Below, piece by piece: positions 1,073-6,798 of a stretch of 20,489 bases of DNA. The first letter of the stretch is position 1; each line of letters opens with the position of its first letter. Source of the stretch: a virus; the IMG/VR virus record IMGVR_UViG_3300020152_000061, positions 1 to 20,489 of that record. One strand, 5' to 3'. The notes under the pieces are model-generated. The model was not told where the DNA came from. It did not search any database and worked only from the letters and a program-made list of their open reading frames with translations. The translations under genes and the position numbers were made by a program.

Positions 1073-1318
1073 TCAGAACGTCGTCGGCTGGGCGATGCCG
1101 CGGATCAGCGACATGAAGCCCTTCTGCAGGTCGGTCTTGCCGATTGCGATCCAGCGCTGGTCGAGCAGGACGACGCCGTCGTGCCGGTGCCGGGCCCCTT
1201 CGAGCCGGGTGACAAAGGCTCCGACCTGCTCGGCCAGATCCTTCGCCTCGTTCATCAGCGCGATCTCTTCTGCGGTGAGGTCGCGATAGCCTTTGATGTG
1301 CTTGTGCTGGTTGTCCAA
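1073..1318 (-). CDS. acb2: Acb2-type anti-CBASS cyclic-oligonucleotide sponge
   Basis: 81-residue protein recognised as an Acb2/Tad1 hairpin-domain member from its N-terminal signature DNQHKHIKGYRDLTAEEI, two helices, and the C-terminal signature DQRWIAIGKTDLQKGFMSL ending AQPTTF. Family knowledge: Acb2 oligomers bind cyclic di- and trinucleotides made by CBASS synthases, so the effector is never activated. Acts in the cytosol. With the TTG at 1318 as residue 1, Tyr falls at 11 and Lys at 26, the two positions I recall as ligand contacts in the Pseudomonas phage protein. The TTG start is preferred because a GGAGAGG site lies about 8 nt upstream and family members begin at DNQ; an in-frame ATG at 1444 would add 42 unlike residues. 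It is the first gene of the leftward early operon, behind a CI-type operator promoter. Family call is strong; activity is inferred. Confidence 0.87.
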   Translation of the reverse strand: MDNQHKHIKGYRDLTAEEIALMNEAKDLAEQVGAFVTRLEGARHRHDGVVLLDQRWIAIGKTDLQKGFMSLIRGIAQPTTF

Positions 1319-1434
1319 AGCAGTCCCTCTCCGAAGAGAGCCGGCGCCCAAGGGGCCAAGAGCGCCGGCTTCAGTTTCGTGCGCGGTGGATTTTCCGCGG
1401 TCGCTCCGGGAGGCTTCTCGGTGGCGACAGGGGG

Positions 1435-1463
1435 ATATTCGCATCGCGATGCGAGAACGTCAA
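1435..1463 (-). promoter_or_regulatory. Leftward early promoter (PL-like) ahead of acb2
   Basis: On the minus strand, -35 TTGACG (1463-1458) and -10 GAATAT (1440-1435) are separated by exactly 17 bp. The spacer contains a perfect 16-bp operator. The same layout, with the same -10 and nearly the same spacer, precedes the cro-like gene at 2716-2744, which supports this as a real promoter controlled by the same repressor. Predicted transcription start is near 1428, about 110 nt upstream of the acb2 start. Confidence 0.65.
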
Positions 1464-1485
1464 CGCAATTCGCACGAAGATGCGA
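1439..1485. promoter_or_regulatory. CI/Cro-type operators, leftward pair
   Basis: Two operators. The first, TCGCATCGCGATGCGA at 1439-1454, is a perfect 16-bp palindrome. The second, TCGCACGAAGATGCGA at 1470-1485, is a partial copy with both outer half-sites kept. Their centres are 31 bp apart, about three helical turns. The first lies in the -35/-10 spacer of the acb2 promoter, the second just upstream of its -35. The same motif recurs between cI and cro, so the likely binders are the window's own CI and Cro proteins. Confidence 0.72.
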
Positions 1486-1502
1486 AAAAAGATTTTTGGC
1501 AC

Positions 1503-1528
1503 AAAAAAGCCCGCCGGCCGAAGCGGGC
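1503..1528 (-). terminator. Rho-independent terminator after the cI-rap1a transcript
   Basis: On the minus strand, GCCCGC (1528-1523), an 8-nt loop, and GCGGGC (1514-1509) are followed at once by six T residues (1508-1503). It lies between the end of the Rap1a/Tai gene and the acb2 promoter, so it would end the lysogenic transcript and keep it from reading into acb2. Confidence 0.85.
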
Positions 1529-1603: not shown

Positions 1604-1966
1604 TCAGGGGCACGGGAAGTTGAGGTGCAGTGCGCTCAGAATTGCGATCGCTCCTCGGGTATCCGCCAGCTCGGCGGAGTTGTCGCGCGCCCACGTCCGA
1701 AATGCCGCCGCGGCCACCTCCGGCTTCAGGCCTTGCGGTGGGATGCAAAACACCTTGGCCTGCGGTGCGACGATCGATAAGGCGGCATGAGTGTCGAGGA
1801 CGGCACCAATAAAGGACAGGCACAGAGTGCTGATTACGTCGCTCGCATTGAGGTCTGTGCTGCACGCCGCATTCAGCAAGTCAGCTTTGATCGCCTGCGC
1901 CTTGGACTCTGTGACCCCTGAGAAGAGGAGCGCGGCCCCCAATGCGACGAATGCAGCAACCCTCAT
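1604..1966 (-). CDS. Rap1a/Tai-family secreted protein
   Basis: 120-residue exported protein. Residues 1-25 form a Sec signal peptide (MRVAAFVALGAALLF core, cleavage near AQA). The mature part matches the Rap1a/Tai family: LLNAACST near the N-terminus, a CLSFIGAV helix, FCIPPQG, and a terminal FPCP, with Cys at 35, 49, 74 and 119 likely forming two disulfides. Family knowledge: Rap1a/Tai proteins are periplasmic immunity proteins against peptidoglycan amidase effectors of type VI secretion, though many homologues have no tested role. The start is chosen for the signal peptide and a GGAGG site 5 nt upstream. It lies 49 bp after cI on the same strand and ends before a strong terminator, so it is probably made in the lysogen. 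Protection of the lysogen from rival amidases or lysins is inference. Confidence 0.82.
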   Translation of the reverse strand: MRVAAFVALGAALLFSGVTESKAQAIKADLLNAACSTDLNASDVISTLCLSFIGAVLDTHAALSIVAPQAKVFCIPPQGLKPEVAAAAFRTWARDNSAELADTRGAIAILSALHLNFPCP

Positions 1967-2015: not shown

Positions 2016-2615
2016 TTAGTTGGGCCGGATCCAGATCACGCGAGATGCCCACAACAGCTCGACATCCTCGCGAAAGGAGCCGGTTGCGTTCAGCAGGTTG
2101 TAGCGGTGCGGCACATAGCCGCGACGGAGGAACTTCACGAACATGCGGCCATCGCTCGTGCAGACGACGCACATCTTCCCGAGGCTGTCATCCGGCACGC
2201 CATCCGCTGAGCGCTGATAGTAGAGGATCCAGCCGTCCTGGATCGCTGGAAGCATGCTGTCACCCTTGACCCGGACCGCGACAATGTCAGTGCCGTCCGC
2301 ATCTGGTGGCGCCTCTACGCGCTCGAGTTCGCTCGTCTCGCCGCCCTCGACCAGTAGAACTTCTGCGCCAGCGCCGACGTATCCCACCAGAGGGACTCCC
2401 CCTTCTTCGCCCGTTAACGCCCAAACAGGAACGCCGGCCACGCGCGCCAACTTCTTGAGGGTGTCAGCGGATAGACTACTGGAGGCGCCGGTTAAGAAGT
2501 TTCTAATAGACCCCTCGCTTATCCCAGCCTTCTTCGCCCACGGGTACACCTTCAGCCCACGTTCGTCCATGAAGCGACGCAACGCTTCCCGGCGGAGTTC
2601 AGCCTCGTCGCTCAT
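2016..2615 (-). CDS. cI: CI-like repressor with LexA/S24 autoprotease domain
   Basis: 199-residue phage repressor. Residues about 1-70 form an XRE-type helix-turn-helix (WAKKAGISEGSIRNFL). Residues about 74-199 are a peptidase S24 domain with a GYVGAGAE cleavage motif (predicted cut A82-G83), nucleophile S120 in GDSM, and general-base K161 in FVKFL. It should bind the TCGCATCGYGATGCGA operators, hold early promoters silent in the lysogen, and self-cleave on RecA activation after DNA damage. The start is one of two adjacent ATGs (2618 or 2615); the second has GAG 7 nt upstream, while neither has a strong ribosome site. A reading from 2783 runs through the operators and is rejected. The 5' leader is about 60 nt. 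The Rap1a/Tai gene follows in the same transcript. Confidence 0.93.
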   Translation of the reverse strand: MSDEAELRREALRRFMDERGLKVYPWAKKAGISEGSIRNFLTGASSSLSADTLKKLARVAGVPVWALTGEEGGVPLVGYVGAGAEVLLVEGGETSELERVEAPPDADGTDIVAVRVKGDSMLPAIQDGWILYYQRSADGVPDDSLGKMCVVCTSDGRMFVKFLRRGYVPHRYNLLNATGSFREDVELLWASRVIWIRPN

Positions 2616-2692
2616 CATCAGCTCAAAGTGAGAGGTGCCGAAGTCTGCACCCAATCGCGTCACCCTGCCATTGGCCGCACTTAAATGCGATG

Positions 2693-2740
2693 CATCATCG
2701 CGATGCGAATTTCGCTTGCCTTTCTCGCATCGTGATGCGA
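2693..2740. promoter_or_regulatory. CI/Cro-type operators between cI and cro
   Basis: A near-perfect operator TCGCATCGTGATGCGA lies at 2725-2740. A second site, CATCATCGCGATGCGA at 2693-2708, has one perfect half (GATGCGA) and a degraded left half. Centre spacing is 32 bp, matching the 31-bp spacing of the acb2-side pair. A further half-site (TGCGATG) lies at 2687-2693. The region separates the divergent cI and cro genes, so it is the lambda OR equivalent. Confidence 0.75.
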
Positions 2741-2744
2741 ATAT
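2716..2744 (+). promoter_or_regulatory. Rightward early promoter (PR-like) for cro
   Basis: -35 TTGCCT (2716-2721), a 17-bp spacer and -10 GAATAT (2739-2744). The operator at 2725-2740 fills the spacer and overlaps the -10, so repressor binding would exclude RNA polymerase. The -10 ends 6 nt before the cro ATG at 2751, so transcription probably starts at or next to the start codon. Confidence 0.65.
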
Positions 2745-2750
2745 CGCGGC

Positions 2751-2975
2751 ATGTGCAAAGCCACCACGAACGACGTTGTGCATCGGATCGTCTCCTTCGC
2801 GACTGCGCAGGGGTGGTCCAAGAGTCGCTTAGCCGCCAACGCTGGGCTGCGCGACACCACGCTTCGGAACTTCGGTTCGGAGTCCTGGAACCCGACGCTG
2901 AAGATCCTTCGCAGGATCGAGGCCGTGATCCCGCCCGAGTTCGGGTGCAATGGGAACGGCGAGGAGGCGGCGTGA
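2751..2975 (+). CDS. Cro-like HTH repressor, probably leaderless
   Basis: 74-residue small DNA-binding protein with a helix-turn-helix around WSKSRLAANAGLRDTTLRNF (residues about 22-41) and no protease domain. Its place divergent from cI, across the shared operators, makes it the Cro equivalent: a second binder of the same sites that would turn down cI and early promoters in lytic growth. The -10 of its promoter ends at 2744, so the mRNA likely begins at the ATG with no ribosome site. A later GTG start at 2778 also lacks one and would cut the fold. Its stop overlaps a 12-codon ORF (2975-3013) behind a GAGGAGG site. Confidence 0.75.
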   Translation: MCKATTNDVVHRIVSFATAQGWSKSRLAANAGLRDTTLRNFGSESWNPTLKILRRIEAVIPPEFGCNGNGEEAA

Positions 2976-3292: not shown

Positions 3293-3418
3293 ATGCGCCG
3301 GCCCCTCGATCTCCCTGAGCAGCGCCAAGCGCGCTCTGACCTCTTCCTCACCCATGCCCCGAGTGTGCGACCCACCGCCGCGCCTCGCTACTCCAATCGT
3401 TTGGAGCAAATTCCATGA
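3293..3418 (+). CDS. Small ORF (41 aa) coupled to next gene
   Basis: 41-codon ORF starting MRRPLDLPEQRQARSDL and ending RLEQIP, strongly basic. It begins 3 nt after the previous stop and ends in an ATGA overlap with the next gene, the junction type used across this operon. The ribosome site is poor (GGTGG only) and the protein has no recognisable feature. It may serve mainly to couple translation. Confidence 0.4.
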   Translation: MRRPLDLPEQRQARSDLFLTHAPSVRPTAAPRYSNRLEQIP

Positions 3419-3903
3419 CCCACCACCGCAAGGCCGGCTCCATCGAGGACAAGCTCCGCGAGGTGCTCAACGTCCTCTCCCCCGACGAGATCCAGCGCGC
3501 CACCGGCAAGAAGGTCGCCACCTTCTACGCGATCTCCAATCCGACCAACGACTACGTCCTCGACATGGACGACGCCGCGGCCTTCGACGCCGCCCTGATG
3601 CACCGGGGCCTGCTCCCCGTGTTCGCACCGATCTTCCAGGAGATGACCAAGGCCGCCCTGGCGCGCTTCGGCGGCGCGGCATCGGTCGAGATGGACCTGA
3701 TGGCCGGCATGTGCCGCCTGTCCAAGGAGGTGATCGAGCTTCACGTCGCCGCCAGCGAGGCGATGGCGGCGGGCAAGCTCACTCCGGCGCTTCGGCGGAC
3801 GCTCGCCCGCGAGTCCCAGGACGTGATGGACCACGCCCGGGAGATCCGAGACGCGGCGGAACCGCCCTATGGGACCGTGACCAAGCTGCGGGCGGAGGGC
3901 TGA
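3415..3903 (+). CDS. Putative phage regulatory protein (162 aa)
   Basis: 162-residue helical, soluble protein. The N-terminal part (DKLREVLNVLSPDEIQRAT, then KKVATFYAISNPTN, residues about 10-45) looks like a helix-turn-helix that recognises DNA. The remainder is amphipathic helix with many Ala and Glu, suited to oligomerisation. The position after cro and before the replication genes is that of a CII-like or early activator gene; this role is inferred from place and shape, not from a sequence match. Start is by ATGA overlap with the small ORF before it. Confidence 0.6.
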   Translation: MTHHRKAGSIEDKLREVLNVLSPDEIQRATGKKVATFYAISNPTNDYVLDMDDAAAFDAALMHRGLLPVFAPIFQEMTKAALARFGGAASVEMDLMAGMCRLSKEVIELHVAASEAMAAGKLTPALRRTLARESQDVMDHAREIRDAAEPPYGTVTKLRAEG

Positions 3904-4111: not shown

Positions 4112-4495
4112 ATGCCCACCGAGCCTTTGACCCGCCACCAGCGGCACCAGTTGGAGATCCGCCGATCCCATCTCATCCGCTCCTCGGCCTACGCGGTCGG
4201 CGCCGAGCGCGAGGCCGTGAACACCGAGCTCCGCATGATCTGCGACACGCTCAACCTGGACGATATCCGGAGGGCGGAGTCTCGGACTTACGACCTGAAC
4301 CGCGACCATCCGAGCCGTCGCGCCACTCAGGCCTGCGATCGCACGAGTGGAAGCTCTGCCGTAGGCGCCAAGACGGACGCCATCAGGTCGCTACTTCAAG
4401 CCGGCACGGCCGCCAACGCGTACGAGATCGCGCGGGTGGTTGGCTGCCATCACAGCTTCGTCCGCAAGGTCGTGAAGTCCGTGAGGGCCGCCTGA
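4112..4495 (+). CDS. HTH-containing phage protein (127 aa)
   Basis: 127-residue protein. The N-terminal half is helical and charged (HQRHQLEIRRSHLIRSS). The C-terminal third (residues about 88-125) holds a convincing helix-turn-helix of the type SLLQAGTAANAYEIARVVGC followed by FVRKVVKSVR, as in small DNA-binding replication initiators or transcription regulators. GAGG precedes the ATG. It lies two genes upstream of the primase-helicase, so a role in origin recognition or early transcription is possible; that is inference. Confidence 0.6.
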   Translation: MPTEPLTRHQRHQLEIRRSHLIRSSAYAVGAEREAVNTELRMICDTLNLDDIRRAESRTYDLNRDHPSRRATQACDRTSGSSAVGAKTDAIRSLLQAGTAANAYEIARVVGCHHSFVRKVVKSVRAA

Positions 4496-4704: not shown

Positions 4705-6798
4705 ATGGTCGCCGTCGCAGCCCTCCCGATCGCTTCCGTTGCGCTGGAGCATGCCCGCCGAGGGCTGCACGTCTTCCCCTGCAATCCGACCAACAAGCGC
4801 CCCCTGGTCGAGGACTGGCCCGGCAAGGCCACCACGGATCCGGACGTCATCGCCGGCTGGTGGCGCCAGTGGCCCAACGCCATGATCGGCTTCGTGACCG
4901 GCGCCCGCTCGGGCTGCTGGGTCCTCGATGTCGACAACGACGACGAGAAGGGGCTCGACGGCGAGGCCAGCCTCGAGGAGCTGTGCGCCGCCAAGGGCTC
5001 GCTCCCTCCGACCGCCCTTGCGCAGACGCCCCGCGGCGGCCGGCATTTCTTCTTCAAGCACCCGGGCCGCAAGGTGGTGAACCGCGCTGGCCGCGACGGC
5101 GCCGAGATGGGCAAGGGCCTGGATGTGCGCGGCGACGGCGGGTATGTGATCCTCGCCGGCTCGCTCACGGCCACCGGCCGGCGCTATGCCTGGGTGCGCG
5201 ACCCCGCCGAGTACGGCTTCGCAGACGCCCCGGCATGGCTGCTGGACATGGTGTGCGAACGCGCCCCGGCGCCATTGCCGGCGAACACCTCCCTTCCCGT
5301 CGTGCGGGACCTCAAGACCCGCCATGACGCGCTGGCCTACGTCGCCGCCGCGATCAATGACGAGTGCCGCCAGGTCGCGCGCTCAGGCAAAGGCGGGCGC
5401 AACCACCAGCTCAACATCGCGGCCTTCGCGATGGGCCAGTTCGTCGGCGCCAAGCTGGTGGACCGCGGCCTGGTCGAAGCCTCTCTCCACGATGCCGCCG
5501 CCTGCTGCGGGCTGATCGCCGACGACGGCGACCGCGCGGTGCGGGCCACGATCAAGAGCGGCATAGACGCCGGCATGCAGCAGCCCCGGGAGATCCCCGA
5601 GCGGGCGCGCGAGACCGGACAGAACGGACAAAACGGACAAACGGCCGGACAAATTCGCCCGGCCCCACAGGTTCCCGAGGGCCACGCTGTACCTGACTAC
5701 GGGTCAGGAGATGAGCCCGAGGGGAAGAAGCGGCGCCTGAAGCTGGTCCTGTTCGACCAGATCGCGCCGCGCCTCAACTCCGCCAAGCTGGTCAAGGGAT
5801 GGCTCACGGAAGGGGCCATGTCGGTGGTCTACGGCGAGAGCAACTGCGGAAAGACCTTCGTCGCGCTCGACCTGGGGCTGCACATCGCCCTGGGCTGGGA
5901 GTGGCGGGGGAAGAAGGTCAAGCAGGGCGTGGTGGTCTACGTGGCCGCGGAAGGTGGCTTCGGGATCTCCAACCGTGTGGAAGCCTTCAAGCGGCATCAC
6001 GAACTCACCGACACCGAGGTGCCGTTCGCGATGGTCCCCTGCGGCGTCGACCTGTGCGACCCGGAGGCGGACACGGCCGAGCTGATCGAGGTCGTCAAGG
6101 AGGCTGCTGCGACGTACGGAGCGCAGGCCCTCCTGGTGGTCATCGACACGCTCGCCCGAGCCATGGCGGGAGGCAATGAGAACGCCCCCGACGACATGGG
6201 CTCGTATGTCCGGAACGTGGACCGGATCCGCGAGGAGACCGGCGCCCACGTCATGAGCATCCACCACTCGGGGAAGGACGCGGCCAAGGGCGCCCGCGGT
6301 CATTCGTCCCTCCGAGCGGCCACGGATACCGAGATCGAGATCACCCGTGACGACGGGTCGAAGATCGGCTGGATCCGGGCCACCAAGCAGAAGGAGCTTC
6401 CGACGGACGCGGAGGAAGCCTTCGAGCTGAAGGTGGTGGAGCTTGGATCGGACGAGGACGGCGAGTCCGTCACGTCCTGCGTGCTTGCCGAGACTGAGGG
6501 AGCTCGGGAGCGTCGCGGGGCAGACCGGACCTATCGCCTGCCCAACAGCACCAAGGTTGCGCTGGATCTCCTGAAGCGGGCCATTGTCGACGAAGGCAAG
6601 ATCCCGCCCGGCAGCAACAACATCCCGAACAACGTCAGGGCCGTCCAGGCGAGCGTCTGGAAGGAATACTGCTATGCCGGCCTCATCAGCGACAGCGACA
6701 GGCCGGAAGCCAAGCAGAAAGCCTTCAAGCGCGCGTTCGACGGCCTCCTTGCCAGCAAGGTCATCGGCTCCTGGGGAGGCTGGATATGGGTCATCTGA
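4705..6798 (+). CDS. Prim-Pol primase fused to RepA-like hexameric ATPase/helicase
   Basis: 697-residue replication protein. Residues about 10-200 are a bifunctional primase/polymerase domain: GLHVFPCNPTNKRPLV, catalytic D75 and D77 in LDVDND, H114 in GGRHFFF, and DVRGDGGYVI near 140-149. Residues about 350-610 are a RecA-fold RepA/AAA_25 ATPase: Walker A GESNCGKT (377-384), Walker B LLVVIDTLAR (D481), IHHSGKD near 518-524. It should unwind and prime phage DNA at the fork. The linker carries a GQNGQNGQ repeat (from residue 305) encoded by CGGACAAAA DNA repeats that recur just past the gene. Its stop overlaps the next gene, and RusA follows, making this the replication/recombination module. 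Confidence 0.93.
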   Translation: MVAVAALPIASVALEHARRGLHVFPCNPTNKRPLVEDWPGKATTDPDVIAGWWRQWPNAMIGFVTGARSGCWVLDVDNDDEKGLDGEASLEELCAAKGSLPPTALAQTPRGGRHFFFKHPGRKVVNRAGRDGAEMGKGLDVRGDGGYVILAGSLTATGRRYAWVRDPAEYGFADAPAWLLDMVCERAPAPLPANTSLPVVRDLKTRHDALAYVAAAINDECRQVARSGKGGRNHQLNIAAFAMGQFVGAKLVDRGLVEASLHDAAACCGLIADDGDRAVRATIKSGIDAGMQQPREIPERARETGQNGQNGQTAGQIRPAPQVPEGHAVPDYGSGDEPEGKKRRLKLVLFDQIAPRLNSAKLVKGWLTEGAMSVVYGESNCGKTFVALDLGLHIALGWEWRGKKVKQGVVVYVAAEGGFGISNRVEAFKRHHELTDTEVPFAMVPCGVDLCDPEADTAELIEVVKEAAATYGAQALLVVIDTLARAMAGGNENAPDDMGSYVRNVDRIREETGAHVMSIHHSGKDAAKGARGHSSLRAATDTEIEITRDDGSKIGWIRATKQKELPTDAEEAFELKVVELGSDEDGESVTSCVLAETEGARERRGADRTYRLPNSTKVALDLLKRAIVDEGKIPPGSNNIPNNVRAVQASVWKEYCYAGLISDSDRPEAKQKAFKRAFDGLLASKVIGSWGGWIWVI
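5616..5654. repeat. CGGACAAAA repeats inside the primase-helicase gene
   Basis: Four 9-bp units (5616-5624, 5625-5633, 5634-5642, 5646-5654) with consensus CGGACARAN. The first three are exactly tandem. Being 9 bp long they keep frame and encode Gly-Gln-Asn repeats in the linker between the primase and ATPase domains. The same unit recurs in direct and inverted copies at 6806-6876. Confidence 0.8.

Follow-up and report, generated by a model that had tools for sequence, protein, structure and literature searches.

In phage lambda, the anti-restriction gene ral and the gene gam are located in the pL operon and are controlled by CI. The placement of counter-defence genes in a pL operon under CI is old, and the anti-CBASS gene acb2 described here joins a known arrangement. 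The sequence-only reading of this DNA had regarded a direct control link as unusual for an anti-CBASS gene; this view was not upheld, as the OL/OR architecture of lambda wires any gene of the pL operon in such a way. The function of Ral has been described (PMC12707154). In the literature covered, to which the original Acb2 paper did not belong, no report on the regulation of acb2 by a lysogeny repressor was found.

The DNA analyzed (the window) is a virus record of 20,489 bases. The site upstream of acb2 is very probably OL1/pL of a temperate phage organized like lambda, in which an HTH-S24 repressor would control both pR (cro) and pL (acb2).

Results

Organization of the early region

The repressor and cro genes diverge around OR, the lysogeny operon extends to a terminator, and OL, pL and the leftward operon follow. 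The individual features are as follows.

1073-1318, minus strand: acb2, 81 aa, predicted anti-CBASS nucleotide sponge; TTG start, GGAGAGGG 6 nt upstream
1340-1370, minus strand: strong hairpin in the leader, shortly before the ribosome site of acb2; dG -24.3 kcal/mol for 1335-1375, z -3.6
1435-1463, minus strand: pL-type promoter of acb2; TTGACG 1463-1458, 17-bp spacer, GAATAT 1440-1435
1439-1454: putative operator OL1; perfect 7+2+7 palindrome TCGCATCGCGATGCGA
1470-1485: second, operator-like site (OL2) with 2 mismatches, 31 bp centre to centre from OL1
1501-1528, minus strand: intrinsic terminator between pL and the repressor/Rap1a-like operon, which it closes; stem 1528-1509, then T run
1604-1966, minus strand: gene for a Rap1a-like exported protein in the position of lambda rex; PF18602, 40 bits; signal-peptide-like start, GGAGGA
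2016-2618, minus strand: CI-type repressor, HTH and S24 peptidase; PF00717, PF01381, phrog_4
2693-2708: second, operator-like site (OR2) with 3 mismatches, 32 bp centre to centre from OR1
2716-2744, plus strand: pR-type promoter of cro; TTGCCT 2716-2721, 17-bp spacer, GAATAT 2739-2744
2725-2740: putative operator OR1; perfect 7+2+7 palindrome TCGCATCGTGATGCGA
2751-2975, plus strand: cro-like gene, 74 aa; weak PHROG repressor match (E 0.028) and position
3415-3903, plus strand: CII-like regulator, downstream of cro; phrog_101, E 5e-5

Residues Y11 and K26, which we take from the PaMx33 structure to be the ligand-binding residues of Acb2, were invariant in the Acb2 alignment A1. The acb2 product matched Pfam family PF24729 with 59.1 bits (cut-off 27), with the domain covering its full length, and the PDB structure of p26/Acb2 (8h2j) with an E value of 1e-17. 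Judged by sequence, the identity of acb2 is secure, and its product would be expected to act as a sponge. The TTG at 1318-1316 was assigned as the start codon because it is preceded by GGAGAGGG and aligns with residue 1 of the solved Acb2. The alternative ATG at 1444, which lies inside the promoter, was rejected on these grounds. The leftward early operon begins with acb2; no known families were detected in the leftward ORFs searched, up to the end of the record.

The S24 domain of the repressor scored 29.8 bits against PF00717, above the cut-off, and the protein contains the GDSM serine, the VKF lysine and an Ala-Gly bond in YVGAGAEV, so that it may well cleave itself upon SOS induction. Searches found no close relatives of the window repressor (best 35%) and no relatives of the window cro, and the window's own operator could therefore not be traced in siblings. 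Transcription from pR is predicted to start at the ATG of the cro-like gene, and the cro mRNA is probably leaderless.

The Rap1a-like gene is probably co-transcribed with the repressor. Its product belongs to a family of T6SS immunity proteins, is likely to be expressed in the lysogen, and represents a possible lysogenic-conversion gene. The terminator at 1501-1528 has a dG of -16 and a z of only -1.2, and its stability is hence largely G+C-driven. As the repressor and acb2 lie on the same strand, this terminator should insulate acb2 from transcription in the lysogen.

Duplicated promoter-operator unit

The segments 1434-1463 on the acb2 side and 2716-2745 on the cro side form an inverted pair of 30 bp, identical at 27 positions. 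The pair ranks first in the inverted-repeat listing of the window, and no such pattern was contained in any of 100 shuffles of the window. These values agree with the sequence-only reading, which had described the acb2 promoter as a near copy of the cro promoter; the minus-strand TTGACG and plus-strand TTGCCT hexamers that it had named, each separated by 17 bp from GAATAT, were likewise both confirmed. The two promoters have TTCTCGCATCGYGATGCGAATATC in common at 23 of 24 positions.

The palindrome TCGCATC-NN-GATGCGA, with 14 palindromic bases, is present in exactly two copies in the window. Two exact matches, two with at most one mismatch and three with at most two mismatches were counted, compared with means of 0.00, 0.017 and 0.24, respectively, in 300 shuffles. 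Perfect 7+2+7 palindromes occur three times in the 20.5 kb of the window, and OL1 and OR1 are two of them. They are versions of one 16-bp palindrome and differ at a single base in its middle. This difference had been correctly noted before, whereas the equation of the operator with the promoter spacer was inaccurate: the operator comprises most of the spacer together with the first two bases of the -10 box.

OL2 and OR2 are positioned upstream of the respective -35 boxes. Both are degraded and unremarkable when considered singly, and sites with three mismatches are expected about twice by chance. Their distances of 31 and 32 bp correspond to about three helical turns, and the near-equal spacing at both promoters suggests that OL1/OL2 and OR1/OR2 may be paired sites.

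The promoter hexamers are weak sigma-70 matches (3 of 6 for GAATAT), and a sigma-70 consensus scan of the window listed neither the acb2-side nor the cro-side promoter. The promoters are thus recognized through their duplication and position, not through consensus. The acb2 transcript would start near 1428. The whole arrangement is best read as repressor control common to acb2 and cro, as far as sequence can indicate.

Comparison across phages carrying acb2

Relatives of acb2 were taken from viral contigs and genomes, and the repressors were then located. An untargeted search for palindromes that the region upstream of acb2 has in common with the locus as a whole was dropped because chance palindromes saturated the score and left no power. 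It was replaced by a test against repressor-upstream regions, in which a palindrome common to this region and the 900 bp upstream of acb2 was sought at 15 loci, window included, where an HTH repressor lay in range.

The palindrome-sharing score was 18 for the window, L037, L020 and L009, 17 for L059 and 16.5 for L030. In these six cases, none of the 60 random segments per locus performed as well. In the null pooled over all loci, values of at least 17 were reached in 3.6%, and values of at least 18 in 0 of 900. Nine of the 15 loci gave no sign of operator sharing in this test.

At least six other phages exhibited a like arrangement with different switch sequences. Further matching cases, L027 and L128 (read as L162), were found by reading. 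The acb2 gene comes later in the operon in L128, and at the Azospirillum-type locus L009 (matching genome contig L093) it is the third gene.

The loci L020, L027, L030 and L037 encode Acb2 proteins that are 96-100% identical, and they differ in their repressors, cro genes and operators. In each of them, the operators upstream of acb2 match those of the phage's own repressor-cro region: TATAGGAATTCCTATT in L037, TTACC(N)4GGTAA in L030, TAAGCG(N)3CGCTTA in L020, and GTTAGC(N)4CTTAC in L027. When acb2-side and repressor-side regions were compared in a 7 x 7 arrangement, the diagonal was maximal (1 of 5040 permutations) at word lengths of 14, 16 and 18; this figure is descriptive, since most of the phages were chosen for having a match, and the test on 15 loci is the fairer one.

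The joint change of acb2-side and repressor-cro operators among related phages supports the reading that their control is shared, and it is on this co-change that the binding of one repressor to both operators can be presumed. It also lends support to the earlier proposal that acb2 is wired to the lysogeny switch. By orientation, acb2 lies on the pR side in L103, L117, L136 and L140. Early, repressor-linked placement of acb2 is thus recurrent, and pL placement is not a rule. No S24 match was found near the short repressors of L037, L020 and L027, so induction may proceed in another way there.

The top matches of the first scan in L023 and L072 were rejected as operators, as they look like hairpins flanking acb2, possibly terminators. 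In L023, L029, L033 and L072, acb2 is bracketed by near-identical hairpins, one some 40 bp before its start and the other some 300 bp beyond it. This suggests that acb2 in these four loci is a self-contained, possibly terminator-flanked cassette.

Leader region and exchangeable cargo

A boxA is the mark of a nut-type antitermination site. A boxA-like CTTTAACAA was found just downstream of OL in L020, L027, L030 and L037. The L030 leader is also carried, at about 85%, by nine Bordetella avium phages (vB_BaM-IFTN1-9), whose likeness to the pL leader of L030 and L037 includes boxA and the region of RF02917. In IFTN2 and IFTN8, the leader is located after the repressor operon, at the head of an operon that leads to exonuclease VIII (exoVIII), with RecT next in IFTN2. 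A different small protein, with function unassigned, occupies the position of acb2. Because the same leader precedes another first gene in these phages, the slot takes exchangeable cargo, and acb2 is cargo in the exchangeable first-gene position of the pL operon.

In L165 (Bordetella phage IFTN2), the segments 4410-4440 (OL) and 1810-1840 (OR) were observed to have the word CTAGTTTTTCTTG in common. Relatives free of acb2 thus have the same layout with yet another operator.

The structured RNA RF02917 of Rfam (Burkholderiales-2, called cis-regulatory) maps to the strand opposite the pL leader, immediately past boxA. It matched the minus strand at the following positions.

L030: 4756-4831
L037: 4755-4831
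L165: 4522-4595
L166: 4521-4594

The sense strand of this region folds about as well or better, which raises the possibility that RF02917 is in fact an early-leader RNA of phages whose model was built on the wrong strand. In L020, a terminator-like hairpin with a T run was observed at 4957-4985, downstream of boxA and directly before the acb2 start; acb2 of this phage may need antitermination.

Discussion

Other explanations for the duplicated site differ in how well they agree with these data. That the duplication arose by chance, or is left over from the copying of a promoter, and plays no part in regulation, is hardly credible, given the perfect two-fold symmetry of both copies, the second sites at matching spacing, and the recurrence of the arrangement, in different sequence, in further phages. 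The shared palindrome could instead be mainly a site for Cro or a host regulator, with pL and pR co-regulated, though not by the lysogeny repressor. Cro and CI usually use common sites in lambda, which speaks for this possibility; the change of the operators together with each phage's repressor-cro region speaks against it and renders it quite improbable. A host box is further disfavored by a scan of the viral collection, in which the pattern of operator plus AATAT had a single match, inside a coding gene (L098), rejected as chance. A host LexA box was rejected as well, as the site is unlike the known alphaproteobacterial LexA boxes.

It is also conceivable, if rather unlikely, that pL transcription is shared while the output of acb2 is set mainly in the leader, as with the N leader of lambda, either by a hairpin or terminator with antitermination or through processing by RNase III. 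In the window, L037 and L020, acb2 is immediately preceded by a strong hairpin, and the boxA of four loci and the RF02917 matches to the leader (opposite strand) of L030 and L037 point in the same direction. In the window, however, the leader contains no recognisable boxA, and its hairpin lacks a T run and is thus not an intrinsic terminator; it is a candidate attenuator or processing site, or may have no role. Control in the leader would moreover be compatible with control at the operator. Control of both promoters by the lysogeny repressor remains the preferred reading.

Under such repressor control, the repressor would occupy OL and OR in the lysogen, so that pL and pR would be shut and acb2 silent, and the terminator before pL would block read-through from the repressor operon into acb2. 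Upon infection, pL would fire before the repressor accumulates; upon DNA damage and SOS induction, the S24 repressor would be expected to cleave itself, and pL would fire again. Acb2 would then be made among the earliest proteins and would soak up CBASS cyclic nucleotides. The steps of this scheme, from repressor binding, repression and timing to SOS cleavage and sponge activity, are those that we infer from the locus, with acb2 presumably off in the lysogen and on at infection.

Acb2 can trigger the Panoptes defence (PMC12657218), from which we infer a reason to keep acb2 off in the lysogen. It is a tentative and rather doubtful extension that the slot behind OL was selected for silence in the lysogen, and not only for early expression, because a constant supply of Acb2 would set off Panoptes and other defences that use nucleotide decoys; the layered control by lysogeny operator, insulating terminator and structured leader would follow from this.

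A clear control circuit is thereby proposed for an anti-CBASS gene, and several temperate phages show that the slot for exchangeable cargo immediately after OL can house a sponge gene. The scheme predicts that a dormant prophage leaves the CBASS of its host intact, and that Acb2 is already available in the first minutes after infection or induction. The gene following OL and the leader in related phages is a place to look for new counter-defence genes.

Comparison with known systems

The locus resembles OL/pL and OR/pR of lambda in its divergent repressor and cro genes with common operators, in a second operator set at the leftward early promoter beyond the lysogeny operon with the first pL gene directly downstream, and in a pL operon that houses counter-defence genes (ral and gam in lambda). 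Several differences were also noted. Lambda has three sites per operator, whereas two are recognisable in the window. The first pL gene is N in lambda and acb2 in the window, and the boxA of the lambda nut site has no recognised counterpart here; boxA and the recombination genes exoVIII and RecT were encountered in related phages only. A Rap1a-like gene replaces rexAB, and cro is apparently leaderless, unlike that of lambda.

Aca-controlled anti-CRISPR operons are similar in that a counter-defence gene is placed under a phage-encoded HTH regulator. However, the Aca regulator is an autorepressor borne on the operon itself, while the regulator in the window would be the main lysogeny repressor of the phage; no HTH family was detected in the leftward ORFs 4-342, 228-617 and 542-790, which the search covered.

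Within the Acb2/Acb2-Tad1 family (PaMx33 p26, T4 Acb2), the window protein is comparable in its full-length match, in Y11 and K26, and in its start, MDNQHK.IKGYRDL. No lysogeny operator accompanies acb2 in lytic T4-like and jumbo phages, whereas acb2 of the window is located behind a putative one.
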